Assembly (NCBI RefSeq): GCF_000717875.1
Contig: NZ_JOCT01000005.1
Span: 124,001-188,000, forward strand
Length of the DNA: 64,000 nucleotides
Source: Streptomyces sp. NRRL S-455
Lineage (GTDB): Bacteria; Actinomycetota; Actinomycetes; Streptomycetales; Streptomycetaceae
Reading direction: 5' to 3'
Numbering within the stretch: position 1 is the stretch's first letter; each line of letters opens with the position of its first letter. Below are positions 14,702 to 30,653 of the stretch, in pieces. Position numbers and translations under genes: made by a program. The notes below the pieces were generated by a model, which saw only the letters and a program-made list of their open reading frames with translations, was not told the DNA's origin and ran no database searches.

Positions 14702-15523
14702 ATGACCGACGCACGGGAGGCCGCCGGCCCGAACGGCGAAACACCCGCTCGGCACACGCCCGGCACGCCCTGCTGGGTGAGCCTGATGGTGCACGGACTG
14801 GCCGCGACCGAGGACTTCTACGGAGCGCTGTTCGGCTGGGAGTTCCGGCCGGGCCCTCAGCAACTCGGACCGTACGTGCGGGCGGTGCTCGACGGGCGAG
14901 AGGTCGCGGGCCTCGGCCGGCTGCCGCCCGAGCGCCATCTGCCCATCGCGTGGACCCCCTACTTCGCCTCACCGAACGCGGACCGGACGGCCGAGTCGGT
15001 GCGCAGCTGCGGTGGCACGATCGGCGTGGGCCCGCTGGACGCCGCCGACGCCGGCCGCCTCGCGATCGGCTCCGACCCCTCGGGCGCGGTCTTCGGCGTC
15101 TGGCAGGCCGGCGCGCACCTCGGCACGGCCGTGTCGGGCGTCCCCGGCACACCCGCCTGGAACGAGTTGCTGACCTTCGAGTCGGCGAGCGTCGCCAAGT
15201 TCTACCGGACGGTCTTCGGCTACGAGCAGGAATCGACGGAACCGGCCGAACCGGCGGTCTCCACCGGCTCCGACTACGTGACCCTGCGCCGTGACAGCGA
15301 GCCCGTCGCCGGCATCCACGGCCTGGGGCAGGCCCTGCCCCGCGACCGGGGCCCGCACTGGGTGACGTACTTCGAGGTCGCCGATGTCGATGACGCGCTG
15401 GCCCTTCTCGCCCGCCTGGGCGGACAGGCCCTCAGGCCGGCCCACGACACGAAGCATGGGCGCGTGGCGACGGTGACGGACCCGGAGGGGGCAGAGTTCG
15501 CGCTGCTGCAGCGGCCGCTATGA
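14702..15523 (+). CDS. two-domain VOC (glyoxalase/bleomycin-resistance fold) protein
   Basis: A 273-residue protein with two VOC modules. The first (about residues 20-125) begins CWVSLMVHGLAATEDFYGALFGWEF and the second (about 140-270) begins AWNELLTFESASVAKFYRTVFGYE. Both have the typical LF(G/V)W(E) pattern and a C-terminal DPxGA(V/E)F strand. Such proteins are dioxygenase-like, isomerase or ligand-binding proteins; no specific reaction can be assigned. Its stop codon directly abuts the stop of the small gene of the defence island, so this is the last syntenic-type gene before the island. Confidence 0.8.
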   Translation: MTDAREAAGPNGETPARHTPGTPCWVSLMVHGLAATEDFYGALFGWEFRPGPQQLGPYVRAVLDGREVAGLGRLPPERHLPIAWTPYFASPNADRTAESVRSCGGTIGVGPLDAADAGRLAIGSDPSGAVFGVWQAGAHLGTAVSGVPGTPAWNELLTFESASVAKFYRTVFGYEQESTEPAEPAVSTGSDYVTLRRDSEPVAGIHGLGQALPRDRGPHWVTYFEVADVDDALALLARLGGQALRPAHDTKHGRVATVTDPEGAEFALLQRPL

Positions 15524-15970
15524 CCGGCTGCCGTGCCTCTGCGCGGAGCGGCGGTCCGTGCCCTTCTGTTGCGGGAACTCGATGCCCGCACCGGGCTGGC
15601 AGAGTTCCGCGACGAGGCTCTCGACGGCTGCGTACCAGGCGCGTACCTGGGCGTGTGTCGGGCCGAGTTCGTCGTGGTGGAACTTGCAGGCCGCGCTGAG
15701 GCGGGTCCAGAGGGCGTTGACCCGGCGGGCAGGGCCGGGGCCGGAGTAGTGACGCAGGCAGAGCAGTTTCGCTCGCATGCTCACCTCGCGAAGCGAGCCT
15801 TCCCGGGTCGCGAGGGCCGCGTCGACGGCCACTTCCAGGGCGATCCGGAGTGCGTAGGCCGCACCGCGGTCGCGGCCTGCCGGGGTCAACGGGCCGTCGC
15901 GGTCCGGGGTTTCGGTGAGGAGGTCGTCGGCGGTCGCGAGGAGTGCGGCGACCGTGAGGGTGGCGGGCAT
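15518..15970 (-). CDS. small helical partner of the SMC-like ATPase
   Basis: A 150-residue, mostly helical protein with no recognised name. The C-terminal half has a Cys/His cluster in AACKFHHDELGPTHAQVRAW (about residues 95-115) that looks like a functional site. Its ATG overlaps the stop of the ATPase gene by one base (TGATG), so the two are translationally coupled and probably form a complex. It is the last gene of the ATPase unit, and its stop codon abuts that of the VOC gene. The position beside a type I restriction operon suggests a defence role, by inference. It might be a helical toxin or a loader/regulatory subunit; no catalytic motif can be claimed. Confidence 0.72.
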   Translation of the reverse strand: MPATLTVAALLATADDLLTETPDRDGPLTPAGRDRGAAYALRIALEVAVDAALATREGSLREVSMRAKLLCLRHYSGPGPARRVNALWTRLSAACKFHHDELGPTHAQVRAWYAAVESLVAELCQPGAGIEFPQQKGTDRRSAQRHGSRS

Positions 15971-18411
15971 CAGACGTTCACCTCCGGGGTGCGGATCCGG
16001 GCGGCGAGGGCCTCGACCCTCCGGACGAAGGCGATCGGGTCGTGCGGGAGGAAACCGCCGGGGTGCGCGCCCTGCTGGCACTGGTGGATGAGAGTTGTGC
16101 TCTCGTTGCCGTAGAGGGTGCGCAGACGGCTCCGGACCTCCTCGTCGGAGTGGACGAGGCCGTCGTCGAACAGGGCGAACGACGCGAGCGGGATGAGCCG
16201 TTCGGTCGCGTCGATGGCGGCCTGGAGGCATTCGGCGGGCTGCCCGGTGCGGTTGCGCCGGAGCCAGGCCGCCTCGACGATCGCCGTGCCCAGGGCCTCG
16301 CGGCACAGGGACGGCAGAACGTGGCGAAGGGCCGTCTCGGAGCAGTTCTGGGTGTGGGCGAGGGCCATGGCGTTGTCGATGGCCTCCTTGACCGGGTCGG
16401 TGTCGGCGGTGACGTGCACCTTGGACTTCTCGCCTCGCTCCACCTTCAGCACGGTCACCGGAAGGTTCTGGCTGCGGAAGGCGTGCGGGAGGCGGGTGTC
16501 GTGGGTGAAGACGACGACCTGCCGGTCGCGGCCGAGTTCGTCGAGCACCTGGGCCAGGCCGTCGACCTTCGCCGGGTCCATGGACTGGACGGGGTCGTCG
16601 ATGACGACGAAGCCGAAGGGGCTGTCGGCCGTCGCGGTGCGGGGCAGAAACAAGGAGAGCGCGAGCGAGTGCAGTTCGCCCTGGCTCATGACGCCCTGGG
16701 CGGAAGCCTCGGTGTCGTCGACGGTGACGTCCATGATCAGCTTGCGGACGGTCGCCTTCTCGCTGCCGTGCAGGCCGACGTGGGTCAGGTCGATGCTGCT
16801 CTGCTGGCGCAGCTTCTCCCAGATCCGCTGCGTGTGGCCGGCGAAGGCGTCGACGCGGAGGTCGCGGATCTCGGTCGTGAGCTTCTTGACCCAGGTGAGG
16901 GCGGCGTTGACCGCCGTCCTGCGGGGCTTGGCGGCCTCGGCTTCCCGGGAGAGCTTCGTCCACTCGGCGAGCAGGCCGACGACCGCGTGCCAGCGCTCGT
17001 CCTTGGCCGCGAGTTCCTCGCGCGCGGCAGCGGCCACGATCGCGCACGCGTCCGTCAGCGTGACCGCCGCCTTGAGCGCGCGCTCGGCGAGTTCTGCGGG
17101 GTCGGTGATCCGGCGGCAGTCGACCCAGGCCTCCCACGGTTCGGCGAGCGCGGCCGGGATCTCGCGCGGCGGGAGGGCCAGGTCGTGCAGGGCGCGCATG
17201 GTGGTCCGCAGGCGGGCCTCGGCCTCGCGCACGGCTTCGGCCTCGCGCAGGAGGGCGGCGATCTGCGCCTCGGCGCGCGTGGCCCACTCCCGGTCCAGGA
17301 CCTGTTCCGTCCCGCAGACCGGGCAGGACGTGTCGTCGACGTGGCGGTCGCTGTGGCCGAGCGCCGCCTGGAGCAGTTCGGCCCTGCTGTGGGCGTCGGC
17401 GGCCGCGGTGCCCTCCAGGTCGTCGACGTCGGCGAGGGCACTGCGCAGCGCGTCGACGGCGGCGCCGACCCGGTTCAGATCAGGGCTCTCGATCTCGGCG
17501 GCGGCCTCCAGCCGCGCCTCCCGCAGCCGGCCCTCGTCAGCCGTGGGCGCACCGGCGATCAGGGCGTCGAGCACGGCGTGGTCGGGCCCGCCCTTCTCCT
17601 CCATCGCCACGAGGGCCTTGAGCGCCCGGTCGTCGTGCCCGACCTCCTCCAGGGCCGCGTGCAGGAGCGGCTTCTTGTCCTTCTCGGCGTTGACGACGGC
17701 GTCGAGTTCCTTCTTCGCGGCCGTCAGCCGTCGCGCGGCGGCGTTGAGGTCGTCGAGGCCGAGGATGGCGGCGATATTGTCGTACATCTCGGACGGCTTG
17801 CCGTTGATCAGGTTGTCCAGGTCGGCGTACGACAGGAACGGGCGATAGGCGCGGGTCGCCTGCTCCCAGCCCGCCTGTTCCAGCGGTACGGTGCCGTGTC
17901 CCGGCCGTCTGAGCACGGCCTCGGAGTCGGTGAAGTTGTCGCCGGTCCAGGTGCGGGTGAGGGTGCTCGGCGACGGGTCGCCCTCGACGGTCAACTTGGC
18001 GTCGACGACGGTCCGTTCACCCTGGTGCAGGTTGCGCCAGCGGACGGCGTGGCTCGGGTGCTGTCCCGAGCAGTGGGCGTTGGTGCCGGTGAACAGGGTC
18101 TCGACGGCCTCGGCGATGCTCGACTTGCCGGAGCCGTTGCGTCCGACGACGAGGGTGACGCCGGGCTTGGGCTTCAGCTTGAGCAGCGCCTTCGAACCGA
18201 CACCGCGGAAGCCGGTGACCGAGATGTTCCCCAGGTAGACGGGGCCTGCGGAGACGCGGGCGCCGCCTTCGACGTCCTCGGGGCCGCCGAGTGCCTCGCG
18301 GATGAGGGCTTTCACCGGGGCGGACAGCTTGCGGTCGCCGGCCAGCCGGGCCTCGACGAGCTCCGGCAGAGGCAGTGCGTTGTCGGTGGTCCGGTCCGTC
18401 GTGTCGTCCAT
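15970..18411 (-). CDS. SMC/RecF-like zinc-hook ATPase (defence-associated)
   Basis: An 813-residue ATPase of the SMC/Rad50/RecF type. An N-terminal head has the strand NISVTGFRGVG and Walker A VVGRNGSGKSS (about residues 89-98). Two helical, partly coiled-coil arms (about 225-350 and 370-500) flank the zinc-hook cysteines CPVC at 363-366. The C-terminal head has the signature VMSQGELHSLALSLFLP (about 574-590), Walker B FVVIDDPVQSMD (601-612) and the H-loop VVVFTHDTR. A helical tail (about 675-813) ends the protein. It resembles the ATPases of defence modules such as RloC/PrrC or Lamassu-type systems only in general plan. The ATG at 18409-18411 has GGGAG upstream. An 18-bp operator lies 148 bp before the start. 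Confidence 0.8.
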   Translation of the reverse strand: MDDTTDRTTDNALPLPELVEARLAGDRKLSAPVKALIREALGGPEDVEGGARVSAGPVYLGNISVTGFRGVGSKALLKLKPKPGVTLVVGRNGSGKSSIAEAVETLFTGTNAHCSGQHPSHAVRWRNLHQGERTVVDAKLTVEGDPSPSTLTRTWTGDNFTDSEAVLRRPGHGTVPLEQAGWEQATRAYRPFLSYADLDNLINGKPSEMYDNIAAILGLDDLNAAARRLTAAKKELDAVVNAEKDKKPLLHAALEEVGHDDRALKALVAMEEKGGPDHAVLDALIAGAPTADEGRLREARLEAAAEIESPDLNRVGAAVDALRSALADVDDLEGTAAADAHSRAELLQAALGHSDRHVDDTSCPVCGTEQVLDREWATRAEAQIAALLREAEAVREAEARLRTTMRALHDLALPPREIPAALAEPWEAWVDCRRITDPAELAERALKAAVTLTDACAIVAAAAREELAAKDERWHAVVGLLAEWTKLSREAEAAKPRRTAVNAALTWVKKLTTEIRDLRVDAFAGHTQRIWEKLRQQSSIDLTHVGLHGSEKATVRKLIMDVTVDDTEASAQGVMSQGELHSLALSLFLPRTATADSPFGFVVIDDPVQSMDPAKVDGLAQVLDELGRDRQVVVFTHDTRLPHAFRSQNLPVTVLKVERGEKSKVHVTADTDPVKEAIDNAMALAHTQNCSETALRHVLPSLCREALGTAIVEAAWLRRNRTGQPAECLQAAIDATERLIPLASFALFDDGLVHSDEEVRSRLRTLYGNESTTLIHQCQQGAHPGGFLPHDPIAFVRRVEALAARIRTPEVNV

Positions 18412-18558
18412 GGGGTGTCTCCCGTGTTTCCCGTGCTGAGGTGGAAGGGGGTGAGCACCGAAAGGCACCGGCGGCGGCCGAACCGCGCCGAACCGCTGGG
18501 GTGCCTGTCGACGGACGGAACCGTAGGCGTGGAGGGAAGTAGCGCGGCATGTCCTTTT

Positions 18559-18576
18559 TGATAACGGCTGTTATCA
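18559..18576. promoter_or_regulatory. 18-bp inverted repeat TGATAACGGCTGTTATCA (operator 1)
   Basis: Arms TGATAAC and GTTATCA around a 4-bp centre, in an AT-rich patch upstream of the ATPase gene. The flanking T and G and the inner spacing are the same as in operator 2 at 27876-27893, the only other copy noticed. It is the expected size for a dimeric repressor. Confidence 0.65.
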
Positions 18577-18642
18577 GAACAGTTGAGAGTAGTGGCGTGA
18601 TCATTCGAGGCGGGGAGAATACCGGTTCGCCCGCCTCGATGA

Positions 18643-19272
18643 TCAGTTGGTTTGCCCCCGCGTCTCGCCGATCAGCCTGTCCGACTCGGCGTCCAGCGGC
18701 ACCTGTTCGCGCGCACCACCGTCGTGGCTGTTCCGCTCCCGCTGAGCGGCGCGTACCTGCTCGTACTCCGCCCAGACGGTCTTGCCCGGGCCGCTCGGGC
18801 GCGGGTGCCAGTCCCATCGGGCCGCGAGCTGCGATACGAGGAGCGGCCCGCGGCCGGTCTCCTCGGCGCCGGCGGCGCTCTCCGGGAGGGCGGGGCGGGG
18901 GTTGCGTTCGGTGCGGGTGTCGGTGACCTCGACGCGTACGGTGCGGCCGTCGGGGGTGGCGTGGAGGCGGAGGTGGAAGTCCCGGCCGGGGACGTGACCG
19001 TGGCTCACGGCGTTCGCGGTGAGTTCGGCGACGATCAGCACGATCGCGTCGTGCGCGTCGCTGCCGTACGGGATGCCCCACGCGTCCAGCCGGACGGCCG
19101 CGAGACGGCGGGCGAGGCGGCTCCGCGGGGTGTGGAGGTGAAGCGCATCTCGAAGGCGCGGTCGGGCGGCGGAGGCGTCTTCAAGGAAGTGCAGGGGGTG
19201 GTGGGTTGGGTGGTGTCGGCGGGATTGATGGGTTTCGTCGTCAACCGCCGCATACGGCCTCGCCTGGTTCAA
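18643..19272 (-). CDS. HATPase-fold (anti-sigma-type) ATP-binding protein
   Basis: A protein of about 209 residues with a single HATPase_c_2 domain of the RsbW-like family, abundant in Streptomyces. Visible motifs are VAELTANAVSHGHVPG (N box, about residues 83-98) and GRGPLLVSQLAARWDW (G2 box, with Pro in place of the usual Leu), ending GPGKTVWAEY. Such proteins bind ATP and act as anti-sigma or signalling factors; the usual DUF397 and XRE partners are absent. The start is uncertain: the TTG at 19272 is the only in-frame start seen upstream of the domain and has no clear Shine-Dalgarno. It sits between the two defence operons, in the same direction. Confidence 0.72.
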   Translation of the reverse strand: MNQARPYAAVDDETHQSRRHHPTHHPLHFLEDASAARPRLRDALHLHTPRSRLARRLAAVRLDAWGIPYGSDAHDAIVLIVAELTANAVSHGHVPGRDFHLRLHATPDGRTVRVEVTDTRTERNPRPALPESAAGAEETGRGPLLVSQLAARWDWHPRPSGPGKTVWAEYEQVRAAQRERNSHDGGAREQVPLDAESDRLIGETRGQTN

Positions 19273-19454
19273 GAGCAGCTACAGCGGGACCGAGGGCGGT
19301 CAGTGTGTAGAGGTCGCAGCCGGTTCGGCTGCTGTGCGCGTTCGTGACTCGAAGGCCACCACCGGGCCCATGCTCAGGGTGTCGCGTGAGGCATGGACGG
19401 GCTTCGTTGGGCTGGCTTCGTCGAAACTGCGCGTGTGACGCTCGTACGGTCGTG

Positions 19455-19492
19455 AGGGCCCTGCCAGCCAGACTCTCGGTCGGCAGGGCTCT
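19455..19492 (-). terminator. hairpin terminator after hsdR
   Basis: An 11-bp stem with one G-U pair and a 16-nt loop, directly after the hsdR stop (19498). It probably ends the RM operon transcript and separates it from the HATPase gene. Confidence 0.65.
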
Positions 19493-19497
19493 TACGT

Positions 19498-22400
19498 TCA
19501 GTCCTCCGGAATCCCCTTCTCGGACCACTCGTTGGCGAAGTGCTCCATCTGGCGGAGGACCAGGTCGATGGCCTCCTTCTGCTGGTCCGGCGGGTAGTTG
19601 TTGCGGGCTAGGAGGCGCTTGATGGTGCTGCGCAGGCGGGCGCGGACGGACTCGCGGGCGATCCAGTCGGGCTTGAGCTGGCGACGGACCTCGGCGACCA
19701 GTTCGCGGGCAATGCCCGCCAGCACCTCGTCGCCCATGAGGGAGCGGGCCGAGCCGTGGTCGGCGACGGCGTCGTAGAAGGCGAGTTCGCGCCAGTTCAG
19801 GGGCGGGTCGAACTTCTCACCCCGGTTGGCGTCGGCCATGACGTCCTTGGCCATCTCGACCAGCTTGGCGATGAGTTCGGCGCTGGTGTACTGCTGGCGC
19901 ATGTAGCGCACCATCAGGTCCTGGAGCCGCTCGGAGAAGGTGGTCTGCCGGACGATGTTGTGCCGGGTGACCTCGCGCATCTTCCGCTCGACGAGCCGCC
20001 TCAGTGCCTCGGCCGCCAGGTGCGGGGTGTCGCTCTGCTGGAGCTGGGCGACGAGCGCGTCGGTGAGGTGGGTGAGGTCGGCGGTCTCCAGTCCGGCCTC
20101 GGCGAACAGGTCCGTCACTCCGCCCGTCTCCACCACGGACGACGTGAGCTGGGAGAGGTACAGCTCGACATCGCGCGCCACGGGGAGACCACGCGCCTCG
20201 CGCTCCATGGCGTCCAGCTTGGCCATGTAGGCGCGGACCTCGACGAGGAATTGGATGTGCCGCTTCCAGGCCGGCGTGTCCGCGAACCGGCTCCCCACCT
20301 CTTTCGAGCTGCCCGCCAGCGCCCAGAAGCGCTCCAGCCGGTAGGCGTGGTCGCGGAAGCGGCGGCCCAGGGTCTGGCGCGGGTCGTCGAGCAGGTCGGG
20401 GTTGTTGCCCTTGGTGCGGGGGTCGCGCAGGTGGTTGGCGGTCTTCAGGGCTGCGTCGACGAAAGCACGGGGGCCGGGGCGGTCCAGCAGGGGTTCCCAG
20501 GCGAAGCCGCGCAGGATGCCGGTGAGGACGTCGTACTCGTTGCGCAGCTCGTCCAGTGCGCGCTCGACATCCTGGCCGAGGGTGCGGTCCCGCTGGTCGG
20601 CCTCGGTGTACTCGGCGATGGCCCGCTGGAGGTTCTCCGTCAGCGGGGCGTAACCGACGAGGAGGCCGTCCTCCTTGCCGCGGAAACGGCGGTTGACGCG
20701 GGCCAGGGCCTGCATCAGGTTGGCGCCCTTGAGCGGCCGGTCCAGGTACATGGTGTGGATCGGCGGGGCGTCGAAGCCGGTCAACAGCATGTTGTTGACG
20801 ATGAGCAGTTCCAGCTCGTCGTCGGGGTCCTTGGCCCGGTTGATGACGGCCTTGCGGCGGCTGTCGGTCAGCGCGTGGGCGAGCAGCGCGTCCGAGTCCT
20901 TGCGGGAGTTCGACGAGAAGACGATCTTCATCGTGCCCTTCTCGAACTCGTCGCTGTGCCACTCGGGACGCAGCTCGCGCAGGGCGTCGTAGACGCGGAC
21001 GCAGATCTCGCGCGTCGCGCACACCACCATCGCCTTGCCGGGCGCCCCACCCGACTCGGAGGCACCGACGAACGGCTTCATCCGCTCCCGGCGGGCCTCC
21101 CAGTGCTCCACCAGGTCAGCGGCCAGGTCCCGTATGCGGGCCGGTGCGCCGTACATGGCGTTCATGGTCGCCACGGCCTGCTCGACGCGGCGGCGCTCGG
21201 TGTCGTCGAGGCCGTCGGTGATGCGGTCGGCCTCCTCGTCGATGGTGGTCGGATCGACGTCGCGGTCCAGGACGAGCTGGATCACGCGGCTCTCGTGGTA
21301 GACCTTCACGGTCGCGCCGTCGTCGGCGGCCCGCTTGAGGTCGTAGACGTCGATGTAGTCGCCGAACACCTCGCGGGTGTTGCGGTCGGCCTCCGAGATC
21401 GGGGTGCCTGTGAAGGCGAGCAGCGTGGCGTGCGGGAGCGCGTCGCGCAGGTGGCGGGCGAGGCCGTTGAGGTCGTCGTAGTGGCTGCGGTGGGCCTCGT
21501 CGACGATCACGACGATGTTCCGGCGGTCGGAGAGCATCGGGTGGTCGGTGCCCGACTCCCGCTCCTCCTTGGTCCTGCCGAACTTCTGGAGCGTGGTGAA
21601 GAGGATCCCTCCCGTCCTCTTCGCCGCGAGCTCTTCTCGGAGTTCGGCGCGGGTGACGACCTGCTTCGGCGTCTCCGGGAGGATCTCGCTTTCCTGGAAC
21701 GTCGAGTAGAGCTGGTCGTCGAGGTCCGTGCGGTCCGTGACGACCACGACGGTGGGGTTCAGCAGGGCCGGGTCCCGCATCACCATGGTGGCGGTGAGGA
21801 CCATCTCCTCCGACTTGCCGGAGCCCTGGGTGTGCCAGACGACACCGGCCTTGCCGTCACTGGCGGAGGCCGTGCGGACGTGGTCGGCGGCGCGGGTGAC
21901 CGCGTGGTACTGGTGCGGTTTCGCGATCCGCTTCATCCGCTTCGATGGCACGAAGTTGATGAAGGACCGGATCAGTTCGAGGAAGCGGGACTGGGTGAAC
22001 AGGCCGTGCAGCGCCAGGTTCTGCCCCGACTCCGAGAAGCCGTCGGCGGTCAACGGGTCGACGCGGGCGCCGAACTCGTCCGTGTTCCAGGGGGCGAAGT
22101 GCTCGTACGGCGTGAACGGCGTGCCGTACTTCGCGGTGATGCCGTCGGAGAGCAGGACGACTGCGTTGTAGCGGAACGCGGTCGGGAACTCCTGGACGTA
22201 CCGCGCCACCTGGGCGTGGGCCGTCTGGAGCGTCGCGTCCTCGTCGCCGGCGCGCTTCAGCTCGATGGCGGCGAGGGGCAGGCCGTTGACGTACAGGATG
22301 ACGTCGAAGCGGCGGTTCTTGTCGCCGTCGATCACCGTGACCTGGTTGAGGGCGCGGTACGTGTTCGCGTCCGGGTCGGCCAAGTCGAGGAGGCGGATGG

Positions 22401-22773
22401 TGGGGTTGTGCTCGGCGCCGTGGGAGTCGGTGTAGGTGACGGACCGTATGCCGGTGGTGAGGTGGCGGTGGGCGGCGCGGTTCTCCTCGTAGGTGTCCTG
22501 GGAGCCGGGGGTGGCGGCGGTCGCCATGGCTTCGCGGACGGCGTCCGGGGGCAGGTCCGGGTTCAGGCGCTCGATCGCCTCCTGGAGGTCCGGGTAGAGG
22601 ATCAGGTCGTCCCAGGACTTCCGGTGGTCGGAGCCGGGGGCGAACGCATTACCGGAGGCCGGCTGCCAGGCCAACTCGGCCAGCTCGTCGAGGGCGAGAA
22701 TCTCCCAGTCGGCCTCGGTGGGGCGGCGGTGGGTTCTGCCGTCAGGCTCATTTCCGTCGTGGGGCGTCGTCAT
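19498..22773 (-). CDS. hsdR: type I restriction enzyme R subunit (HsdR)
   Basis: A 1091-residue translocase and nuclease of a type I restriction-modification complex; it cuts unmethylated DNA after ATP-driven translocation. The N-terminal nuclease domain has FDVILYVNGLPLAAIELKR with the PD-ExK residues Asp157, Glu171 and Lys173. The SF2 motor follows: Walker A THTQGSGKS-like (TQGSGKS at 315-321), VIVDEAHRSH (DEAH at 425-428), LAFTGTPI and LLTGFDAP. A C-terminal helical region completes it. All key residues are present, so it looks active. Its ATG overlaps the hsdS stop by 4 bp, and it is the last gene of the operon. Confidence 0.95.
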   Translation of the reverse strand: MTTPHDGNEPDGRTHRRPTEADWEILALDELAELAWQPASGNAFAPGSDHRKSWDDLILYPDLQEAIERLNPDLPPDAVREAMATAATPGSQDTYEENRAAHRHLTTGIRSVTYTDSHGAEHNPTIRLLDLADPDANTYRALNQVTVIDGDKNRRFDVILYVNGLPLAAIELKRAGDEDATLQTAHAQVARYVQEFPTAFRYNAVVLLSDGITAKYGTPFTPYEHFAPWNTDEFGARVDPLTADGFSESGQNLALHGLFTQSRFLELIRSFINFVPSKRMKRIAKPHQYHAVTRAADHVRTASASDGKAGVVWHTQGSGKSEEMVLTATMVMRDPALLNPTVVVVTDRTDLDDQLYSTFQESEILPETPKQVVTRAELREELAAKRTGGILFTTLQKFGRTKEERESGTDHPMLSDRRNIVVIVDEAHRSHYDDLNGLARHLRDALPHATLLAFTGTPISEADRNTREVFGDYIDVYDLKRAADDGATVKVYHESRVIQLVLDRDVDPTTIDEEADRITDGLDDTERRRVEQAVATMNAMYGAPARIRDLAADLVEHWEARRERMKPFVGASESGGAPGKAMVVCATREICVRVYDALRELRPEWHSDEFEKGTMKIVFSSNSRKDSDALLAHALTDSRRKAVINRAKDPDDELELLIVNNMLLTGFDAPPIHTMYLDRPLKGANLMQALARVNRRFRGKEDGLLVGYAPLTENLQRAIAEYTEADQRDRTLGQDVERALDELRNEYDVLTGILRGFAWEPLLDRPGPRAFVDAALKTANHLRDPRTKGNNPDLLDDPRQTLGRRFRDHAYRLERFWALAGSSKEVGSRFADTPAWKRHIQFLVEVRAYMAKLDAMEREARGLPVARDVELYLSQLTSSVVETGGVTDLFAEAGLETADLTHLTDALVAQLQQSDTPHLAAEALRRLVERKMREVTRHNIVRQTTFSERLQDLMVRYMRQQYTSAELIAKLVEMAKDVMADANRGEKFDPPLNWRELAFYDAVADHGSARSLMGDEVLAGIARELVAEVRRQLKPDWIARESVRARLRSTIKRLLARNNYPPDQQKEAIDLVLRQMEHFANEWSEKGIPED

Positions 22774-23981
22774 GTGGCGTCCTCGACAATCTTCTCGGCG
22801 TCCTTGACGCGGAGGCGGCCGGACATGAGTTGGGGGAGGAGGGTGTCGCGGAGGGTGGCGAGGGCCCGGGACTCATGCACAGCCTGACCAGCCCTCGCTT
22901 CAAGGGAATCAAGCTTGGGGCGAAGCTCACGCTGCCGCTCCTTACTGGGGAGAGAGATCTCCAGCTCACCCAGCTGCGTGCGACGAAGTTCGGTCTGGCC
23001 GGTACTGCCCTCGCCCATCGCCTCGATCTCGGGCTGTGCGCGAAGCATGGCAAATCCTGCGCAAATGGGATCCACCTGGGCCTCGTCGAACCTCACGATA
23101 GTGATGTGCGAATCGACCGTCGCGGCCTCGTCGGAAGTCCACAGTGCAACCCGGCCGAGCGTGCCGACACCGGTCGAATTCACCAAGACGTCGTTTCTCA
23201 CCAGCAGTTTGGGAGCCTTCACCTTGTCTCGAAGTGTGCGACGCGCGGGGGTGAGGCTCACGCGCCCGCCTCGAATACACTTCTGATTCAAGACCATCAG
23301 CTCGTCCGGCGATTCAGAATACTTCGGCGCGACGCCTCGGGTAAGAACGCACGACACTGATTCGACACTGACCTCCATGCCCGCTTCCTGTGCAACCGCT
23401 TGAGCGAAGAGAGCAAGACCGAGTTCACGCGAGGTGATGACGATGCGCTCGTTGACAGCAATCATGTCATCCAGCGCCCCGAGCAGGGCAGAAATTTCCA
23501 CTTGCCTGCGCAGCGGAGGAATGGGCACCTGCAGCTTTTTCAGGTCACTGCCCCTAATGCCTGCCGCAGCAACCTGATTGATGATCGTCTCGATGTTTCG
23601 CCGGCCCTTCGCCGACCTGAAGTAGTAGTAGATGAAGCGCGGGTCCGCGAGCTTCCTGTTGATTCGGGCGCGAATAAGGTGGCTTTCCCAGGTGCGAGGC
23701 CTTTCCGAAGCCCCCACGAGCACGCATCTACCTGCGCCCTCATAGGTCAGAGATTGGCGGGCGAAAAGGAGATCACCCTCGGCCAGGAGGGAGTTGCCAA
23801 GTTCGTGCTCCTTCAACGGGACAAGTTCGCATTCCTGGTCCCGAATGATGTCGTATGCGAAGATTTCCCGCATGTTGACCATCGGAATGCCTTGGCCTCG
23901 CATTTTCGAAGGATAGCTGACGCCGTTTCGCAACGGGCTGCTGAGGATCTCTTCGAAGCGGACCGTACGCCATTCAGACAT
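22770..23981 (-). CDS. hsdS: type I restriction enzyme specificity subunit (HsdS)
   Basis: A 403-residue specificity subunit with two target-recognition domains, each followed by a conserved helix. TRD1 (about residues 1-150) leads to LQVPIPPLRRQVEISALLGALDDMI; TRD2 (about 195-340) leads to LEISLPSKERQRELRPKLDSLE. It sets the bipartite DNA sequence that the MTase and restriction complex recognise; the sequence cannot be read from the protein. The ATG at 23979-23981 gives the normal start MSEWRTVRFEEIL. It overlaps the hsdM end by 8 bp. Base composition is clearly less GC-rich than in the neighbours, as is usual for recently exchanged TRDs. Confidence 0.93.
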   Translation of the reverse strand: MSEWRTVRFEEILSSPLRNGVSYPSKMRGQGIPMVNMREIFAYDIIRDQECELVPLKEHELGNSLLAEGDLLFARQSLTYEGAGRCVLVGASERPRTWESHLIRARINRKLADPRFIYYYFRSAKGRRNIETIINQVAAAGIRGSDLKKLQVPIPPLRRQVEISALLGALDDMIAVNERIVITSRELGLALFAQAVAQEAGMEVSVESVSCVLTRGVAPKYSESPDELMVLNQKCIRGGRVSLTPARRTLRDKVKAPKLLVRNDVLVNSTGVGTLGRVALWTSDEAATVDSHITIVRFDEAQVDPICAGFAMLRAQPEIEAMGEGSTGQTELRRTQLGELEISLPSKERQRELRPKLDSLEARAGQAVHESRALATLRDTLLPQLMSGRLRVKDAEKIVEDAT

Positions 23982-25596
23982 GAATGGCCCCCAACTGCTC
24001 GCGAATCGACTTCTCCAACTCCGCCGACTCGTCGAACAGCCCAAACAGTTCCTCCGTCAGCTCGCTGATCCGCTCGGCGACAGCCTCCGCATCTTCTTCC
24101 TCAGCCTCGGCAGCTCCCACATACCGCCCCGGCGTCAGAACGTACCCGTGCTCCCGGACCTCCTCGAGGTCGGCCGAGTAGCAGTAGCCCAGCACATCCT
24201 CGTAGGTCAGTCCCGCCTCACCCGCCGATGCCGTGCCCCGCCAGGCGTGATATGTGTCGGCAATCTTCCGGAGGTCCTCCTCCGAAAAGGCGCGCTCTGT
24301 CCGGTCGACCATCTCGCCCGTCTCCCGGGCGTCGATAAACAGGATCTCGTTCCGTCGGTCGTCCAACCGCCGCGCACCCTGCGGAGACTTATCCTTGGAA
24401 AGGAACCACAGGCAAGCAGGGATCTGCGTCGTACGGAACAGCTGGGGCGGCAGCGCCACCATGCACGCCACCAGATCGGCCTCGATCAGAGCCTGCCTGA
24501 TCTCGCCCTCGCCGCTGGACTGAGAGTTCATGGAGCCGTTGGCCAGGACAATGCCCGCCGTGCCCCTCTCCCCCAGCTTGGAGATCATGTGCTGAAGCCA
24601 GGCATAGTTGGCGTTGTTCTTCGGCGGGACGCCGTACCTCCACCTCGGATCAGTCTCGTCCCTCGCCCAGTCCTTGATGTTGAAGGGCGGGTTGGCCATC
24701 ACGAAGTCGGCCTTGAGGTCCGGGTGCTTGTCATCGGCGAAGGTGTCGCCCCAGCGGGCGGCGAGGTTGCCGTCGATGCCGTGGATGGCGAGGTTCATCT
24801 TGGCCAGGCGCCAAGTGCGCTCGTTCAGCTCCTGGCCGTAGACCGAGATGTCGGCCTTGTGGCCACGCCCCCGGTGCGCCTCGACGAACTTGGCGGCCTG
24901 CACGAACATGCCACCCGACCCGCACGCCGGGTCGTACACCCGCCCCTCGTACGGCTCCAGGATCTCGACGATCAGCCGGACGACAGAGCTCGGCGTATAG
25001 AACTCGCCACCCCGCTTGCCCTCGGCCCGCGCGAAGTTACCCAGGAAGTACTCGTACACCTCACCCAGCAGATCCTGCGCCGGCTTGTCCCCGCTGCCGC
25101 CGAACCGAGCGTCGCTGATCAGATCGACGAGTTCACCGAGGCGCTTCTGGTCGACGCGGTCCTGGTTGAAGATCTTGGGGAGGACTCCGGTCAGGGAGGC
25201 GTTCTCCCGCATGATGGCGTCCATCGCCTCGTCGAGGAGCTTGCCGACGCCCTGGGCCTTCGCGTGCGTGGCGATCCAGGACCAGCGGGCGGTCTCCGGG
25301 ACCCAGAAAACGTGCGCGCCGGTGTACTCGTCACGGTCCTCCAGGAAGTCGTCGAGGCGGTCCTCGGCGATGCCCTCCTCCATCAGTTCCTTGGCGAGCT
25401 CGGTGCGGCGCTCGTCGAAGGCGTCCGAGACGTACTTCAGGAAGATCAGGCCGAGGACGAACTCCTTGTACTGGGCGGCGTCGATGGAGCCGCGCAGCTT
25501 GTCCGCCGCTTTCCAGAGGATGTCCTGGATCTCCTTGGCGGTGGAGGCGCTGAACAGCTCCGCCTGGTCGGCGGGCTTGCCTTTACTTGCGGGCAT
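23974..25596 (-). CDS. hsdM: type I DNA methyltransferase subunit (HsdM)
   Basis: A 540-residue N6-adenine DNA methyltransferase. The N-terminal helical HsdM domain (about 1-170) is followed by EFYTPSSVVRLIV, the SAM-binding motif DPACGSG (222-228) and the catalytic NPPF (302-305). It methylates host DNA at the site defined by HsdS. All motifs are intact. Its start overlaps the end of the upstream HTH/dead-MTase fusion gene by 14 bp, and its end overlaps hsdS by 8 bp, so the four genes form one tightly packed operon. Confidence 0.95.
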   Translation of the reverse strand: MPASKGKPADQAELFSASTAKEIQDILWKAADKLRGSIDAAQYKEFVLGLIFLKYVSDAFDERRTELAKELMEEGIAEDRLDDFLEDRDEYTGAHVFWVPETARWSWIATHAKAQGVGKLLDEAMDAIMRENASLTGVLPKIFNQDRVDQKRLGELVDLISDARFGGSGDKPAQDLLGEVYEYFLGNFARAEGKRGGEFYTPSSVVRLIVEILEPYEGRVYDPACGSGGMFVQAAKFVEAHRGRGHKADISVYGQELNERTWRLAKMNLAIHGIDGNLAARWGDTFADDKHPDLKADFVMANPPFNIKDWARDETDPRWRYGVPPKNNANYAWLQHMISKLGERGTAGIVLANGSMNSQSSGEGEIRQALIEADLVACMVALPPQLFRTTQIPACLWFLSKDKSPQGARRLDDRRNEILFIDARETGEMVDRTERAFSEEDLRKIADTYHAWRGTASAGEAGLTYEDVLGYCYSADLEEVREHGYVLTPGRYVGAAEAEEEDAEAVAERISELTEELFGLFDESAELEKSIREQLGAIHV

Positions 25597-27754
25597 CGGG
25601 TGGACCGTCTCCTTCAGGGGTGTCGGTGTACGGAAGTGGCTGGATGGTGAGCGTGCCGTCGGTCATGCCGGCCGCCATCACGCGGGTCAGGTCGTCGAGC
25701 GCGGCCGTCTGCTCGCGCAGCAGCGCCGACCGTGCCTCGATCTCCGCGAGGACGCCCTCGTACAAGTCGGCCTCGGCGCCGCTCAGGTCGGGGAGGACCA
25801 GATCCTCGATACGGCGGGACGCGCGCACGGCCCCGCTGATGCGGGCGTGCTCCCCCGCCGCAGCGCGCAACAGCGCCGCCAGCACCCGGGGTCGTACCGG
25901 CGGGTCCGCGTCGGGATGCACGCGCAGGATGCGGGCCGGGGCCGCGACCAGCGAGACGCCCTCCGTGTCGACGTACACGCCGAAGTGCGGGTGGGCGGTG
26001 ACCACAAGGTCCCCGGGTTCGGTGAACTGGGCGTGCTCGTACGCGGTGAGGAGGATGCCTCGGTCGATGCGCCGACCGCCCACACGAGCGGTGCCGAGGA
26101 TCTCCTCGGGGGTGAGAACCGTGTAGTGGCCCTCAGGGGTGAGGTGTTCGGGCGCGAAGCGGTGGCCGGGGCGGCGACGCAGCCGACGGGTACGCAGGAG
26201 GCGATCCACAGTCGTACGGCGTACCGGCTGCGTCTCGGGGCGCAGCTCCGCGTGGGCGTGCAGCCGGAGTTCTCCTTGTCGCGCACGCTCCTGCAGCTCA
26301 CTCAGCCGGCGTTCCAGGTCCGCGATGACGGCCGGGCGTTCTACCACCGTCCGCGTGTGACGGGACGCGAGCGTGCGGTGCTGCGGGGTGAACGCGGCAC
26401 CGGGACGGTCGTCGAGGTCCGTGCCGTGGACGATGGCGGCGTGGCGGGGTTCGTGACGCCGGTCGGAGGACCAGCCCGAGGCGCGCCAGATGGCGATGTC
26501 CTCGGCGAGGGCGTCGAGCACGGGCTCGGTGAGCGGCCGGGCGGAGTAGTCGGCAAGCAGGACGAGGCCCGTGCGCTGCTCCTCGGGAACACGGGCGAGG
26601 ACCCAGACCGCCGTGCGGTAGCCGGGGCGGTAAGCGTACGCGCCGTCGGGGAGGCTGATCGCCGCCTTGAGTAAACCGGGCTTGAGGAACGAGCGGCGCA
26701 GGCGGTCGGCGTCGCCGTGCCGGGCGAGGGGGCCGGTGAGGACGTCGGCGGGGCCGAGGACGACGGCGGTGGCTCCGGTGTCGAGGTAGTCGGTGAGGGC
26801 GGCGACCTGCTCCAGGACGGCCTTCGCGTCACGGGTCTCGGCGGCCTCGTACGGCAGGGCGCAGACGAGGAGGTTCGGGTAGCCCCACTCGTCGGCGGTC
26901 AGTTCCTCGCCCTCGACGACGTCGAGCCGGAACTCGTACACCCCGCGCACCAGCATCCGCCGACGGACCATGCGCACTCGGGCCGGATCTGGGTCGGCGG
27001 CGAGGTAGAGGTGACCGGAGTCCTCGGCGGCGTGGTCGTGGAGGGCGGCCGGGAGGTCGCCGGCGCGGGCATGCGGGACGGCGATCACCGCACCCTCGTC
27101 GAGGGTGTCGACCCCGGAGAGCGCGACGAGGGCGCGAACCACGGCCGGAGTGGGCCCGTCGGCGGCCGGGTCGTGGGCGCCGAGGCGGGGGCGCGCCTGG
27201 AGGATCCAGTCGAAGGCCTCGGCGGGGTTGTACGCGGCGTCGATCAGCTCGTCGGCGAGTGCGGCGAGGGCCGGGCCGGTGCGCTCCGGGTCGGGCAGGG
27301 CCCGCAGCTCGGAGAGGAGGAAGCAGTCGTCGGGGTCGAGGTCGGCGGCCCGATCCAGGACGGTGCTCCAGGGGCGGCCGTCAGCGACCCGGGCGTCGAG
27401 CTGCTGGTGCAGGCAGACCAGAGAGGTCAGCGCGCCGAGCAGGACGGACGCGGACAGGGCCGGGGTGCGCCAGGCGGCCAGGGTGTGCAGGGCGAGCTCG
27501 GCGCGGAGTCGGCGGGGATCGGTGTTGCCGCGGCCGGTGGAGGCGAGCCAGTCGACGACGGCGCGGGCGTCGAAGAGCGGACGCCCGTCCTCGTGGGTCA
27601 CGGGTGCGGGGAAGTCGGGATGCCGGCGAGCCCACGTGGTGGGCACCGGGCGCTTGACCTGGGCGAGGGCGGCGATCTCGGCGTAAGTGATCCGCCAGGC
27701 CGGGGTTTCGGGCAGGATGGCGGAGGACGTCTGCGCGGCCGTGTGCGTCGTCAT
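25583..27754 (-). CDS. HTH / degenerate methyltransferase / TRD-like fusion, first gene of the RM operon
   Basis: A 723-residue protein in three parts. Residues about 20-75 form a helix-turn-helix (ITYAEIAALAQVKRP then FDARAVVDWLASTGR, the AlpA/MerR-like pattern). Residues about 200-455 follow the order of an N6-adenine MTase (TPAVVRALVALSG, then SLPDGAYAYRPGYRTAVWVLAR), but the SAM motif DPACGSG is replaced by a stretch around AVIAVPHARAG (222-232) and NPPF by CALPY (298-302). Residues about 530-695 resemble a target-recognition domain and its helix (FTEPGDLVVT, EDLVLPDLSGAEADLYEGVLAEIEAR in part). It is therefore probably a DNA-binding, non-methylating protein. It lies 122 bp from operator 2 and may regulate the island, by inference. 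Confidence 0.78.
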   Translation of the reverse strand: MTTHTAAQTSSAILPETPAWRITYAEIAALAQVKRPVPTTWARRHPDFPAPVTHEDGRPLFDARAVVDWLASTGRGNTDPRRLRAELALHTLAAWRTPALSASVLLGALTSLVCLHQQLDARVADGRPWSTVLDRAADLDPDDCFLLSELRALPDPERTGPALAALADELIDAAYNPAEAFDWILQARPRLGAHDPAADGPTPAVVRALVALSGVDTLDEGAVIAVPHARAGDLPAALHDHAAEDSGHLYLAADPDPARVRMVRRRMLVRGVYEFRLDVVEGEELTADEWGYPNLLVCALPYEAAETRDAKAVLEQVAALTDYLDTGATAVVLGPADVLTGPLARHGDADRLRRSFLKPGLLKAAISLPDGAYAYRPGYRTAVWVLARVPEEQRTGLVLLADYSARPLTEPVLDALAEDIAIWRASGWSSDRRHEPRHAAIVHGTDLDDRPGAAFTPQHRTLASRHTRTVVERPAVIADLERRLSELQERARQGELRLHAHAELRPETQPVRRTTVDRLLRTRRLRRRPGHRFAPEHLTPEGHYTVLTPEEILGTARVGGRRIDRGILLTAYEHAQFTEPGDLVVTAHPHFGVYVDTEGVSLVAAPARILRVHPDADPPVRPRVLAALLRAAAGEHARISGAVRASRRIEDLVLPDLSGAEADLYEGVLAEIEARSALLREQTAALDDLTRVMAAGMTDGTLTIQPLPYTDTPEGDGPPDARK

Positions 27755-27875
27755 CGGACGTGTCCCCCCTCTCCCCTGGGTTGCCGAGGCCGGCTTCCTC
27801 GCCTCGCGGTCCGCCCCCTTCATGGGCAGGCGTCAGCAATCTACAGCGAGGTCGCCAGACACAGGAAAACCCACT

Positions 27876-27893
27876 TGATAATACGGGTTATCA
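27876..27893. promoter_or_regulatory. 18-bp inverted repeat TGATAATACGGGTTATCA (operator 2)
   Basis: Arms TGATAA and TTATCA around a 6-bp centre, in the AT-rich gap between the divergent RM operon (start 27754) and the membrane-protein gene (start 27975). With the flanking bases it shares TTGATAA-N6-TTATCAG with operator 1 at 18559-18576. Confidence 0.65.
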
Positions 27894-27974
27894 GCTATCT
27901 CATCACCGCGACCCCGGAACGGCGGGCACCTTGTGACCACCACGCGCCACAACGCCGACCGGAGGATCACCGCG

Positions 27975-28601
27975 ATGAGCAACCCGCCCTCGACACCGCC
28001 CAGCACCCCGCAGCCCTCCGGCTCCGAAAACGCACCGAGCTGGGGCGCCGTACCGCCGATGCCCGCCACGCCGGGCGGTGCCGGGCAGCCTCCGGCGGGC
28101 ATGCCGGCGGGACCGAAGCCGTCGCGCCGCAAGGCATGGCTCACCCACGGCGCGACCGCGCTCGTCGCCCTCGTGATCGGAGCCGGCATCGGCGGCGACG
28201 GGGACTCCGGCGGCAAGGACGACTCCGCCGCTCCCGCACCGGCCGCCACTGTCACCGAGACCGTGTCCGCCGAAGCCGGTGAACCGGAACCGGCCCCCAA
28301 GGCCACCGAGAAGGGCAAGGCCACCCCGAAGCCCGCCGAGAAGTCCGGACCGGCCACCACGGTCGAGGGCGACGGCCAGTACCTCGTCGGCGAGGACATG
28401 CAGGCCGGCACCTACAAGACCGCGGGGCCCGACAAGGACGGCATCATCGACAACTGCTACTGGGCACGTACCAAGGACGCCTCCGGGGAGTTCGAGGCGA
28501 TCATCGCCAACGACAACCTCGAGGGCCAGGGCCGCGTGACGGTCAACAAGGGCGAGTACTTCGAGACCAACGGCTGCCAGGAGTGGACCAGGGTCGGCTG
28601 A
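27975..28601 (+). CDS. membrane-anchored extracytoplasmic protein, unknown function
   Basis: 208 residues. The first 55 are Pro/Ser-rich and cytoplasmic, followed by a basic patch (SRRK) and one membrane segment (about residues 58-75). After it come an acidic, Ala/Pro/Lys-rich linker and an outside domain of about 80 residues starting GQYLVGEDMQAGTYKT. Two cysteines in the domain (DNCYW and NGCQEW) probably form a disulfide. Similar domains occur in many Streptomyces secreted proteins without known function. The ATG has GGAGG about 10 bp upstream. It diverges from the RM operon and shares the gap with operator 2. Confidence 0.7.
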   Translation: MSNPPSTPPSTPQPSGSENAPSWGAVPPMPATPGGAGQPPAGMPAGPKPSRRKAWLTHGATALVALVIGAGIGGDGDSGGKDDSAAPAPAATVTETVSAEAGEPEPAPKATEKGKATPKPAEKSGPATTVEGDGQYLVGEDMQAGTYKTAGPDKDGIIDNCYWARTKDASGEFEAIIANDNLEGQGRVTVNKGEYFETNGCQEWTRVG

Positions 28602-28649
28602 CCTGGCGTCGCACACGCCGCCGCATTCGTGGGGGGGCGCGGCGGACGC

Positions 28650-28688
28650 GGGGCGGGCGGCCCGGCAGAGCCCCTGACCGCCCGCCCC
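28650..28688 (+). terminator. hairpin terminator
   Basis: A perfect 11-bp stem GGGGCGGGCGG / CCGCCCGCCCC with a 17-nt loop, 49 bp past the stop of the membrane-anchored protein gene. The rest of 28602-28880 holds only the promoter region of the next gene. Confidence 0.65.
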
Positions 28689-28880
28689 GGCTCTTCTCTC
28701 CAGCATCCATGCCGGTAACCGATATCCCTCGCGGGTCACGCTCTCGGCGGGTGGAGCCCTGGCCGAGTACCGGCGGGTACGGGACCGCCGCCGAGTTCGG
28801 CAACCGCCCGCGTCCCCAGGCCCTCCGCCGCACCGCTCCCCCTCGTGACCTCACCCTTCGTACCGAAAGGAAGTCCCGCG

Positions 28881-29489
28881 ATGCCCGTCCCGGAGCAGCA
28901 GCCGCACACCCCTCCCCCGAGCACGATTCCCGAGAAACCCGGGGTCGCGCCCGAGGAGTCGGAGTCAGCGTCCGCCTCCGTCTCCCTCTGGTCGCGGCTG
29001 TCGCGCGGCACGGTCCTCGCGATCGGGGCCGGGCTCGGCGCCGCCGTCGTGGGAGCGTGCTGGGCAGGGGTGTCGCTGGCCGGTGGCAACGGGGCCGACA
29101 CACCCGAGGCCGGTACGACCGGTTCGCCCTCCGTGAGAGCCGAGCAGGACGCGGACGTGGAGGGGCCGTTCAGCACCGACGGAACCCTCACCGTCGCCGG
29201 GATCGGTGCCGGTCTGGAGTCCGAGGAGCTGTGCTCCGGGACGGGCGGCTACTCCGACATCGACTTCGGCACCCAGGTCAACGTCACCGACGCCGCCGGA
29301 ACCCTCGTCGCCGTGGGGAGCCTGGGCTTCGGCGAGAAGACGGAGCAAGGCTGCGAGTTCCCCTTCACGGTCGACGACATCACGCCGGGCTCGAAGTTCT
29401 ACACGGTCGAGGTCTCCCACCGCGGCGGTCTCACCCAGACCGAGGACGAACTGCGCGCGGGCGGCCTCGCGTTCACTCTCGGTGACTGA
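28881..29489 (+). CDS. single-pass membrane protein, unknown function
   Basis: 202 residues with a Pro-rich cytoplasmic start, one membrane segment (about residues 45-68, VLAIGAGLGAAVVGACWAGV), and an outside domain of about 110 residues rich in Gly, Thr and acidic residues. Two cysteines (ELCSGTGG and GCEFPF) are spaced for a disulfide. The architecture is the same as in the gene before it, but the outside domains are not obviously alike. The ATG at 28881 has AAGGAAG upstream. No family is recognised. Confidence 0.65.
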   Translation: MPVPEQQPHTPPPSTIPEKPGVAPEESESASASVSLWSRLSRGTVLAIGAGLGAAVVGACWAGVSLAGGNGADTPEAGTTGSPSVRAEQDADVEGPFSTDGTLTVAGIGAGLESEELCSGTGGYSDIDFGTQVNVTDAAGTLVAVGSLGFGEKTEQGCEFPFTVDDITPGSKFYTVEVSHRGGLTQTEDELRAGGLAFTLGD

Positions 29490-29639
29490 ACGGGCAAACT
29501 GCGCTGGGAGATTGCTCGGTTTCCGGCTTCTGCATTCCCACTTCTTTCGGAACTTGTCACTGAACGATGTACCTCACCCACGTGTCGGCTGATAGGGCAC
29601 CGTGGAACCGGCGATCACAGTCGAAAGGGAGAACCTCGA

Positions 29640-30653
29640 ATGAGCACGTACGCCGACCCACTCGTCGACGATGCGATCCCGATGAGCGCGTACGAGAGGC
29701 AGGTATGGGTCGCGCTCAACGAGCACTGGCAGCGCCGCGACGACCGCCGTGGTCTGCCGAACTGGGCGAGCAACGCGCTCGGCCGCACCGGTGAGGTCGC
29801 GGGAAACGCCGCACGACGGGTCAAGGACGCCGTGCCGGAGGCGGTCGCGGAGCCCATCCGTCGCGCAGGCGACGCGGTCGCCGACACGGCCCTGCGACCG
29901 GCGCTCGCGGGCGCGGCGGCGTTGCTCGAGCTGGTCAACGACAAGGCCATGGATCTCAATGACCCGAAGAGCGTTGAGGACCTCGCCCGCAAGCAGGGCC
30001 TTGAGATCGACAGTTTCACCGAACTGCGGCAGCAGGACCTCAAGGTCTGCGACCGGCTGCTGACCCGCAACACCCTCAGGTGGCGGACCACCGGCGCGGT
30101 CGAAGGCGGCGCCATGGGTCTGCTGGCCACGGTCCCCGTCGCCGGTACCCTCACCGCGATGACGGCGGACATCCTCGTCGTCCAGGTCCTGAGCACGTCG
30201 ATAGCGGCGCGCATCGCGTACTCCTACGGCTACGACGCCAAGGACCCCAAGGAGCAGGACTTCATCCAGCGCCTCGTCCAACGGTCATTCATGGCCCAGG
30301 CGGCCAAAGCCAGGCCGCTGCGCGACGTCGCACGGGCGGCGGACGCGGTCAAGGGACGCGTGAACTGGTCACAGAAGCTGCGCAACGACCACCGCCTCCT
30401 GGCCGCCCTCGAGAAGTTGATGAAACAGCTGGGCCCAGCGGGCTCAAGGGTGCCCGTCAAGAACGTGGCCAAGGTCGTGCCGTTCGTGGGGGTCCTCATC
30501 GGTGCCGGGATGAACTCTGCGATCCTCGGCAGGGTGGCCGCCGACGCGCAGCGGTACTGCCAGACCCGGTTCCTGTGCGACAAGTACGGGCTGCCGCTGC
30601 CGACCGCCTTGGCGACCGACTGGGACGACGACTCCCAGACCGACACCATGTGA
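29640..30653 (+). CDS. EcsC family protein
   Basis: 337 residues matching the EcsC family. A helical N-terminal region contains the WxxL repeat NEHWQRRDDRRGLPNWASNALG. The centre has a hydrophobic glycine-rich stretch (GGAMGLLATVPVAGTLTAMTADI, in part, about residues 155-178), and the C-terminus has VVPFVGVLIGAGMN near residue 280. The family is thought to be membrane-associated; its molecular role is unknown. The ATG has AAGGGAG upstream. A more divergent relative lies at 3119-4051. It converges with the thymidine kinase gene. Confidence 0.82.
   Translation: MSTYADPLVDDAIPMSAYERQVWVALNEHWQRRDDRRGLPNWASNALGRTGEVAGNAARRVKDAVPEAVAEPIRRAGDAVADTALRPALAGAAALLELVNDKAMDLNDPKSVEDLARKQGLEIDSFTELRQQDLKVCDRLLTRNTLRWRTTGAVEGGAMGLLATVPVAGTLTAMTADILVVQVLSTSIAARIAYSYGYDAKDPKEQDFIQRLVQRSFMAQAAKARPLRDVARAADAVKGRVNWSQKLRNDHRLLAALEKLMKQLGPAGSRVPVKNVAKVVPFVGVLIGAGMNSAILGRVAADAQRYCQTRFLCDKYGLPLPTALATDWDDDSQTDTM

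Follow-up and report, generated by a model that had tools for sequence, protein, structure and literature searches.

Two copies of an 18-bp palindrome in a stretch of 64,000 nucleotides (nt) from the genome of Streptomyces sp. NRRL S-455 (contig NZ_JOCT01000005.1, positions 124,001 to 188,000; hereafter the window) very probably represent a real control switch, kept in relatives among soil bacteria, that ties a type I restriction-modification (RM) operon to a neighbouring pair of genes for an ATPase and its partner. The regulator appears to be encoded by the first gene of the RM operon, the product of which is called X below. We put at roughly 0.7 the probability that X is a pseudo-methyltransferase that controls its own gene, probably as an activator, within a regulon of three promoters served by the 18-bp operator. 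Leftward from operator 1, the island comprises X, hsdM, hsdS, hsdR, a HATPase_c_2 gene, operator 2, the SMC/RecF-type ATPase gene and the gene of its 150-residue partner (Table 1); hsdR, hsdM and hsdS are present together, which identifies a type I RM system.

An earlier note on this DNA had reported the repeat at both places and proposed that the RM operon, the ATPase pair and perhaps a divergent gene form one regulon. Both copies are present, and an exact search for TGATAAYNNNNRTTATCA (TGATAAY-N4-RTTATCA) across the 8.23-Mb genome (120 contigs) returned only these two, where the base composition of the window predicts about 0.001. When up to three mismatches are allowed, the window yields five strand-matches against 0.12 expected, namely both sites on both strands and one match with three mismatches. 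The statement that there is no third copy holds for exact matches throughout the genome; exact copies elsewhere in the chromosome, which would count against the regulon, are absent, and a wider chromosomal regulon was rejected for the same reason. The core of operator 2 has perfect 7-bp arms around a 4-bp centre and that of operator 1 a single T/G mismatch in the seventh arm pair. Both patches are AT-rich in a GC-rich genome, as the note had remarked (47-48% GC against 71% in the window). The note had described the unit as an 18-bp TTGATAA-N6-TTATCAG at 18559-18576 and 27876-27893; the 18-bp cores do lie there, but that pattern is a 20-letter form and spans 18558-18577 and 27875-27894. Its flanking T and G are indeed shared by the two copies of the window but are variable in relatives, so the 18-bp core is the unit. 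Among 63 distinct X promoters the arms of the relatives' operator (TGATAAC-N4-GTTATCA) are largely conserved and the centre is free.

The operator tracks X and hsdMSR across genomes. Exact matches were found in 20 of 392 genomes of the genus, and the reversed-pattern control in one. Stretches of about 17-20 kb were fetched around the sites of the 19 other genomes, and the window proteins were compared with them by tblastn. The exact site precedes X-hsdM-hsdS-hsdR (X being the window protein or a homologue) in 18 of the 20 genomes, the source genome included; where two exact sites are present (6 genomes), the pair lies 2.4-11.3 kb apart on the same contig. In the remaining two genomes (G157 and G185; loci L032 and L033) the site stands beside a LacI-type gene, a label taken from reading the translations alone without a family search, and X is missing. 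These sites (TGATAAT-N4-ATTATCA, at 10001-10018 in both loci) are probably convergent operators. A profile search with X matched 28 of the 392 genomes: 22 with 23 full-length copies, one with a fragment (G133) and five with distant relatives. All 23 full-length copies have an upstream site with at most two mismatches; G115, G164, G257 (two copies) and G362 carry, instead of an exact site, versions with one or two mismatches before X, among them CGATAAC...GTTATCG and the symmetric variant TGATAGC...GCTATCA. Phylum-wide, at E 1e-15, the X search matched 4 of 396 genomes, which are that of the window itself, one with a further full-length copy (G717), one with the fragment (G133) and one with a match of 82 positions (G192).

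A scan of GTDB genomes contributed 79 loci, from the best 80 of 526 confirmed stretches. In the first 46 of them (L083-L128), which are 35-94% identical to X and belong to genera including Streptomyces, Kitasatospora, Microbispora, Glycomyces, Micromonospora, Amycolatopsis, Nocardia, Frankia and Lentzea, a site with at most two mismatches was found in 44 of 45 loci (L121, with no upstream sequence, excluded). A Micromonospora locus (L114) has an everted-arm palindrome, TGTTATC...GATAACA, in the place of the operator, 33 nt before TACTGT. Near the distant helix-turn-helix (HTH) methyltransferases of L129-L161, nothing better than three mismatches was found within about 350 bp of the gene in the place of X; L130 has TGATAAG...CTTATCA about 980 bp upstream. 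The proposal of a single regulon is supported comparatively in that the site follows X-hsdMSR across genera.

X combines an N-terminal HTH with a DNA methyltransferase fold. Fold searches identified its body as HsdM-like, of the adenine type, and methyltransferase motif IV is missing in all 68 X loci examined. X is likely to be a degenerate (pseudo-)methyltransferase, the catalytic motif of which has apparently been lost and which has turned into a gene regulator; given the loss of motif IV, we propose that it serves as a transcription factor. A sequence search of the PDB with the X profile returned nothing significant (best E 0.1, 3lkd), and homologues are named mostly "hypothetical protein" and in some cases "N-6 DNA methylase" (120 listed of 203 homologues). 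In a distant X clade (L076-L080) the motif IV position reads DPPY/F or SPPY, and the operon of L079 starts with an Abi_2 gene.

The ATPase pair allows a comparison of islands with and without X. The ATPase search gave 54 matches in 53 of the 392 genus genomes; 16 of the matches are X-linked and the other 38 are not. All 16 X-linked ATPase genes have the site (0-3 mismatches; in G047 one site is common to X and the ATPase). In 17 of the 18 X-less loci examined, the best upstream match has only 5-7 mismatches, and no site with two or fewer mismatches exists anywhere in those 17 stretches. L193 (G160) has an ATPase without its first 208 residues, so that its promoter cannot be judged, and no site with up to three mismatches in its 17 kb; when it is set aside, 16 of 17 X-less ATPase genes with an intact start are without the site. 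A Fisher test of the comparison gives 1.5e-8 with L193 counted, a value that is only indicative because the loci are related by descent. The ATPase part of the proposed regulon is borne out to this extent, in that ATPase genes linked to X have the site and those in X-less loci mostly do not. Loss of the site from islands that keep both gene sets was seen nowhere in the genus set, for X or for the ATPase. In the wider collection, X and the ATPase occur together at 23 loci, and at 20 of these a site with at most two mismatches stands on the ATPase side; L089 and L117 are without one, and L114 has its variant palindrome.

The distance from the operator to the promoter is also conserved. A TANNNT hexamer lies 32 or 33 nt past the palindrome in 59 of 64 distinct X promoters, and among the ATPase entries (n = 32, two loci counted twice) 26 have TANNNT and two CANNNT at these offsets. 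On the side of the divergent Rv1352-type gene, CANNNT stands at 32/33 nt in all 17 distinct promoters, which agrees with the inclusion of this gene in the regulon. The background of [TC]ANNNT is about 1% per offset. No TTGAC-like -35 element was found in the 63 distinct X promoters, in which no base exceeds 40% anywhere from -24 to -13 relative to the hexamer. Activation is classically marked by sites that lie ahead of the -35 region at a constant spacing in helical phase. The fixed spacing together with the lack of a TTGAC-like -35 suggests an activator site. In the distant clade L076-L080, TGAGAA-N6-TTCTCA palindromes (0-1 mismatch) have [TC]ANNNT 31-32 or 43-44 nt downstream in 5/5 loci, spacings that differ by about one helical turn.

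We propose that a regulator specific to the island uses the 18-bp palindrome as its operator and that this regulator is X, an adenine methyltransferase (type I/IIG-like, with an HTH at its N-terminus) that would have lost its catalytic motif and would act as a transcription factor. A dimer of X would read two TGATAAC half-sites 11 bp apart. Measured from the predicted starts of X-hsdMSR and the ATPase-partner pair, the centre of the palindrome lies about 53-54 bp upstream, and the same distance applies to the divergent Rv1352/Rv1906c-type gene in islands that have it. With a TANNNT/CANNNT hexamer and no TTGAC-like -35, these promoters are most likely activated by X, and positive autoregulation would couple restriction to the companion ATPase and HEPN-like module. 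A more far-reaching version, to which we give a little less than an even chance, is that a catalytically dead methyltransferase that keeps its HTH, HsdM fold and specificity-like tail is a dedicated activator of the type I RM system and the ATPase/HEPN-like module, and may read the state of DNA or S-adenosylmethionine through its dead body, co-switching restriction and a second-line module.

If X binds the operators, it might repress from them, in the manner of M.SsoII, and lower its own expression and that of the island. There is precedent for this: known regulators of type II systems that fuse an HTH to a methyltransferase bind a separate palindrome and thereby repress the gene that encodes them (PMC3978073, PMC12707154), and RptR represses a type I island (PMC12255303). 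In those systems, however, the operators overlap or compete for the promoter, whereas the palindrome here ends at a fixed 32-33 nt upstream of the -10 hexamer, and the distant clade includes spacings about one helical turn longer; we regard repression as unlikely. As to what occupies the site, the binding by X is a prediction from sequence comparison, and the two genomes with same-pattern sites beside LacI-family genes indicate that unrelated regulators can use such sites, so a regulator encoded elsewhere in the chromosome might be responsible. Those two loci aside, exact sites in the 392 genomes are confined to X islands, X-less ATPase genes are mostly without the site, and among the products common to all X islands (X, HsdM, HsdS and HsdR) an HTH was identified in X alone, which makes a regulator from elsewhere quite improbable. 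The note had also named the HATPase protein as a candidate binder along with the 25583-27754 product; the latter is well supported by the comparisons, and the former is disfavoured because its gene is missing from many islands with intact sites. We give hardly any credence to two other readings, namely that the type I enzyme itself recognizes the repeats or that they act as a cruciform or an RNA hairpin. They are bipartite palindromes near RM genes, the arms of which could form a cruciform, but the site stays constant across islands whose HsdS proteins differ widely (25-68% identity in most alignments), its distance from the hexamer is fixed, its position ahead of the predicted starts means that it would not be transcribed from these promoters, and Rfam gave no match in 15000-30000 at gathering scores.

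Several observations weigh against activation by X from these sites. Pfam detects no domain in the X of the window even at E 1, and a sub-threshold HTH_17 in one relative (E 0.0052). L192 (G196) keeps one operator with a single mismatch without X; its ATPase is 84-85% identical to that of the window and has the usual flanks, and the locus looks like one in which the operon was lost and the operator left behind. The comparison is confounded by the greater divergence of most X-less ATPases (39-56% identity), although X-linked ones at 50-56% identity still have the site. On the ATPase side, L089 and L117 lack a site within about 400 bp; in L089 the ATPase, the partner and the Rv1352-type gene all point the same way from the shared site, and it is possible that they are co-transcribed for this reason. 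At 32/33 nt, five of the 64 X promoters and four of the 32 ATPase entries have no [TC]ANNNT hexamer. The CANNNT form was accepted once the sequences had been looked at, and the promoters for the spacing counts were chosen for a site with at most two mismatches. A weak TGGATT-like bias near -35 (up to 60%) exists in 30 ATPase promoters, many of which are closely related. The loci share ancestry and some species occur twice, so P values are only indicative, and both the binding and its sign are deduced from comparison.

X resembles known autoregulators encoded by RM systems. It differs from them in its fold, RM type and operator position, in having extra targets and in having probably lost catalysis. 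Like X, M.SsoII and M.Ecl18kI (and, by citation, M.EcoRII) have an N-terminal regulatory HTH fused to a DNA methyltransferase (PMC3978073, PMC12707154, PMC3874152), and M.SsoII uses its N-terminal region to bind a 15-bp quasi-palindrome, repressing its own gene (PMC3978073). Proteins of this type have a separate palindrome in the promoter region of their own RM system, as do all 23 genus copies of X, for which binding is predicted. M.SsoII is an active 5-methylcytosine enzyme of a type II system and a repressor of its own gene, whereas X is the first product of a type I operon, has an adenine-type HsdM-like fold that lacks motif IV and would not fall among active type II enzymes of that kind; X also has a second and sometimes a third target promoter, with the site at an activator-like distance. 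C proteins are likewise autoregulators encoded by RM systems that coordinate the RM genes from operators and can activate (PMC3874152, PMC12707154, PMC3978073), but they are products of small genes of the Xre family, unlike X with its 723 residues and methyltransferase body. RptR of Gammaproteobacteria is, like X, encoded by the first gene of a type I RM defence island and conserved with its binding site (PMC12255303); it is a small all-helical repressor acting on TAGCTA repeats, unlike the much longer X with its TGATAAC-N4-GTTATCA site. A 2025 review states that little is known of the transcription of type I RM systems (PMC12707154). Among the open-licence PMC papers listed by the searches, we found no title or displayed abstract that describes this operator or X as a regulator; relative to the earlier note, the reading of X as a degenerate methyltransferase and the fixed, activator-like distance of the site from the -10 hexamer are new.

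For type I RM systems in actinobacteria, the analysis supplies a specific, conserved and directly testable predicted operator and regulator. Restriction here seems to be under one promoter switch together with another putative defence module. It is suggested that a methyltransferase can lose catalysis and persist as a regulator, and the palindrome with 32-33 nt to the -10 hexamer provides a rule for finding further members of the regulon. If a dead methyltransferase does act as activator, HTH-methyltransferases with cognate palindromes at a fixed promoter distance would be a general class of actinobacterial defence regulators.

Table 1. Genes, operators and predicted promoter elements of the island (coordinates of the window).
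Feature	Position	Strand	Remarks
Operator 1	27876..27893	.	TGATAATACGGGTTATCA; between X (leftward) and the Rv1352/Rv1906c-type gene (rightward)
Operator 2	18559..18576	.	TGATAACGGCTGTTATCA; before the ATPase-partner pair
X	25583..27754	-	723 aa; HTH, degenerate HsdM-like methyltransferase, specificity-like tail; proposed regulator
HTH region of X	27530..27697	-	residues 20-75; RPV..TW.RRHxDFP strongly conserved
LPY in X	26849..26857	-	residues 300-302, where active relatives have [N/D]PP[Y/F] (motif IV)
hsdM	23974..25596	-	type I RM methyltransferase
hsdS	22770..24044	-	specificity subunit; open reading frame, ATG at 23981 the likelier start
hsdR	19498..22773	-	restriction subunit
HATPase_c_2 gene	18643-19272		in the leftward series between hsdR and operator 2
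SMC/RecF-type ATPase	15970..18411	-	813 aa from ATG; searches used 15970-18405
Partner of ATPase	15518..15970	-	150 aa; all-helical, HEPN-like predicted fold; early searches used 15518-15979
Divergent gene	27975..28601	+	Rv1352/Rv1906c domain; optional regulon member
Predicted -10 of X-hsdMSR	27838..27843	-	TAGATT; 32 nt after operator 1; predicted +1 near 27831
Predicted weak -10 of divergent gene	27927..27932	+	CACCTT; 33 nt after operator 1; predicted +1 near 27939
Predicted -10 of ATPase	18520..18525	-	TACGGT; 33 nt after operator 2; predicted +1 near 18513

Searches of Pfam, PADLOC and NCBIfam at E 0.001 place X, the partner and the protein at 28845 in no family. PADLOC matches the ATPase best to LmuB (E 2.8e-21, with 196-639 as the best stretch) and gives nothing for the partner. 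The ATPase is of the SMC/ABC type, like LmuB of Lamassu, PDC-S06, mad3 of MADS and the retron ATPases, but the matches are partial and the partner is without a family match, and the pair is not assignable to any of these systems. The structural model of the partner is all-helical (predicted local distance difference test score 88.5), and HEPN and HepT chains are among its top Foldseek hits, with weak E-values (best 0.12). HEPN-domain proteins have an Rx4-6H motif; in the partner alignment (A3) no conserved Rx4-6H was found. The combination of an SMC-type ATPase with a HEPN-like partner suggests, from the predicted fold, a growth-arrest or RNase module. The ATPase matches often occur without X and in places near other systems; in the islands of L192 and L193 the ATPase, the partner and the divergent genes are present, with no match to X or hsd. 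In L027-L029 and L093-L098 the fetched stretch has no ATPase match, and an extra HsdM-like gene (31-32% identity) lies downstream of hsdR.

Other actinobacterial HTH-N6 methyltransferases (many of L131-L161) share with X an HTH of the type xRxTVSNWRRRH and a similar length, but they differ in that motif IV (NPPY/F) is present in 22/31, the upstream motif is another one and they do not stand before this hsdMSR operon. The conserved upstream motif of many of them, TGACANTGAAAGCANTGTCA, has TANNNT 28 nt downstream at 15 of the 33 loci L129-L161 (best match with 0-7 mismatches). In L194-L198 an ATPase-partner pair lies near this other type of HTH-methyltransferase, and the same motif (0-3 mismatches) stands 28 nt before TANNNT in 5/5 loci. 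The sequences hint that HTH-methyltransferases with cognate motifs may be a broader regulatory theme. A HATPase gene with 67-72% identity to that of the window recurs close to members of this other class in L131, L141, L148, L149 and L151.

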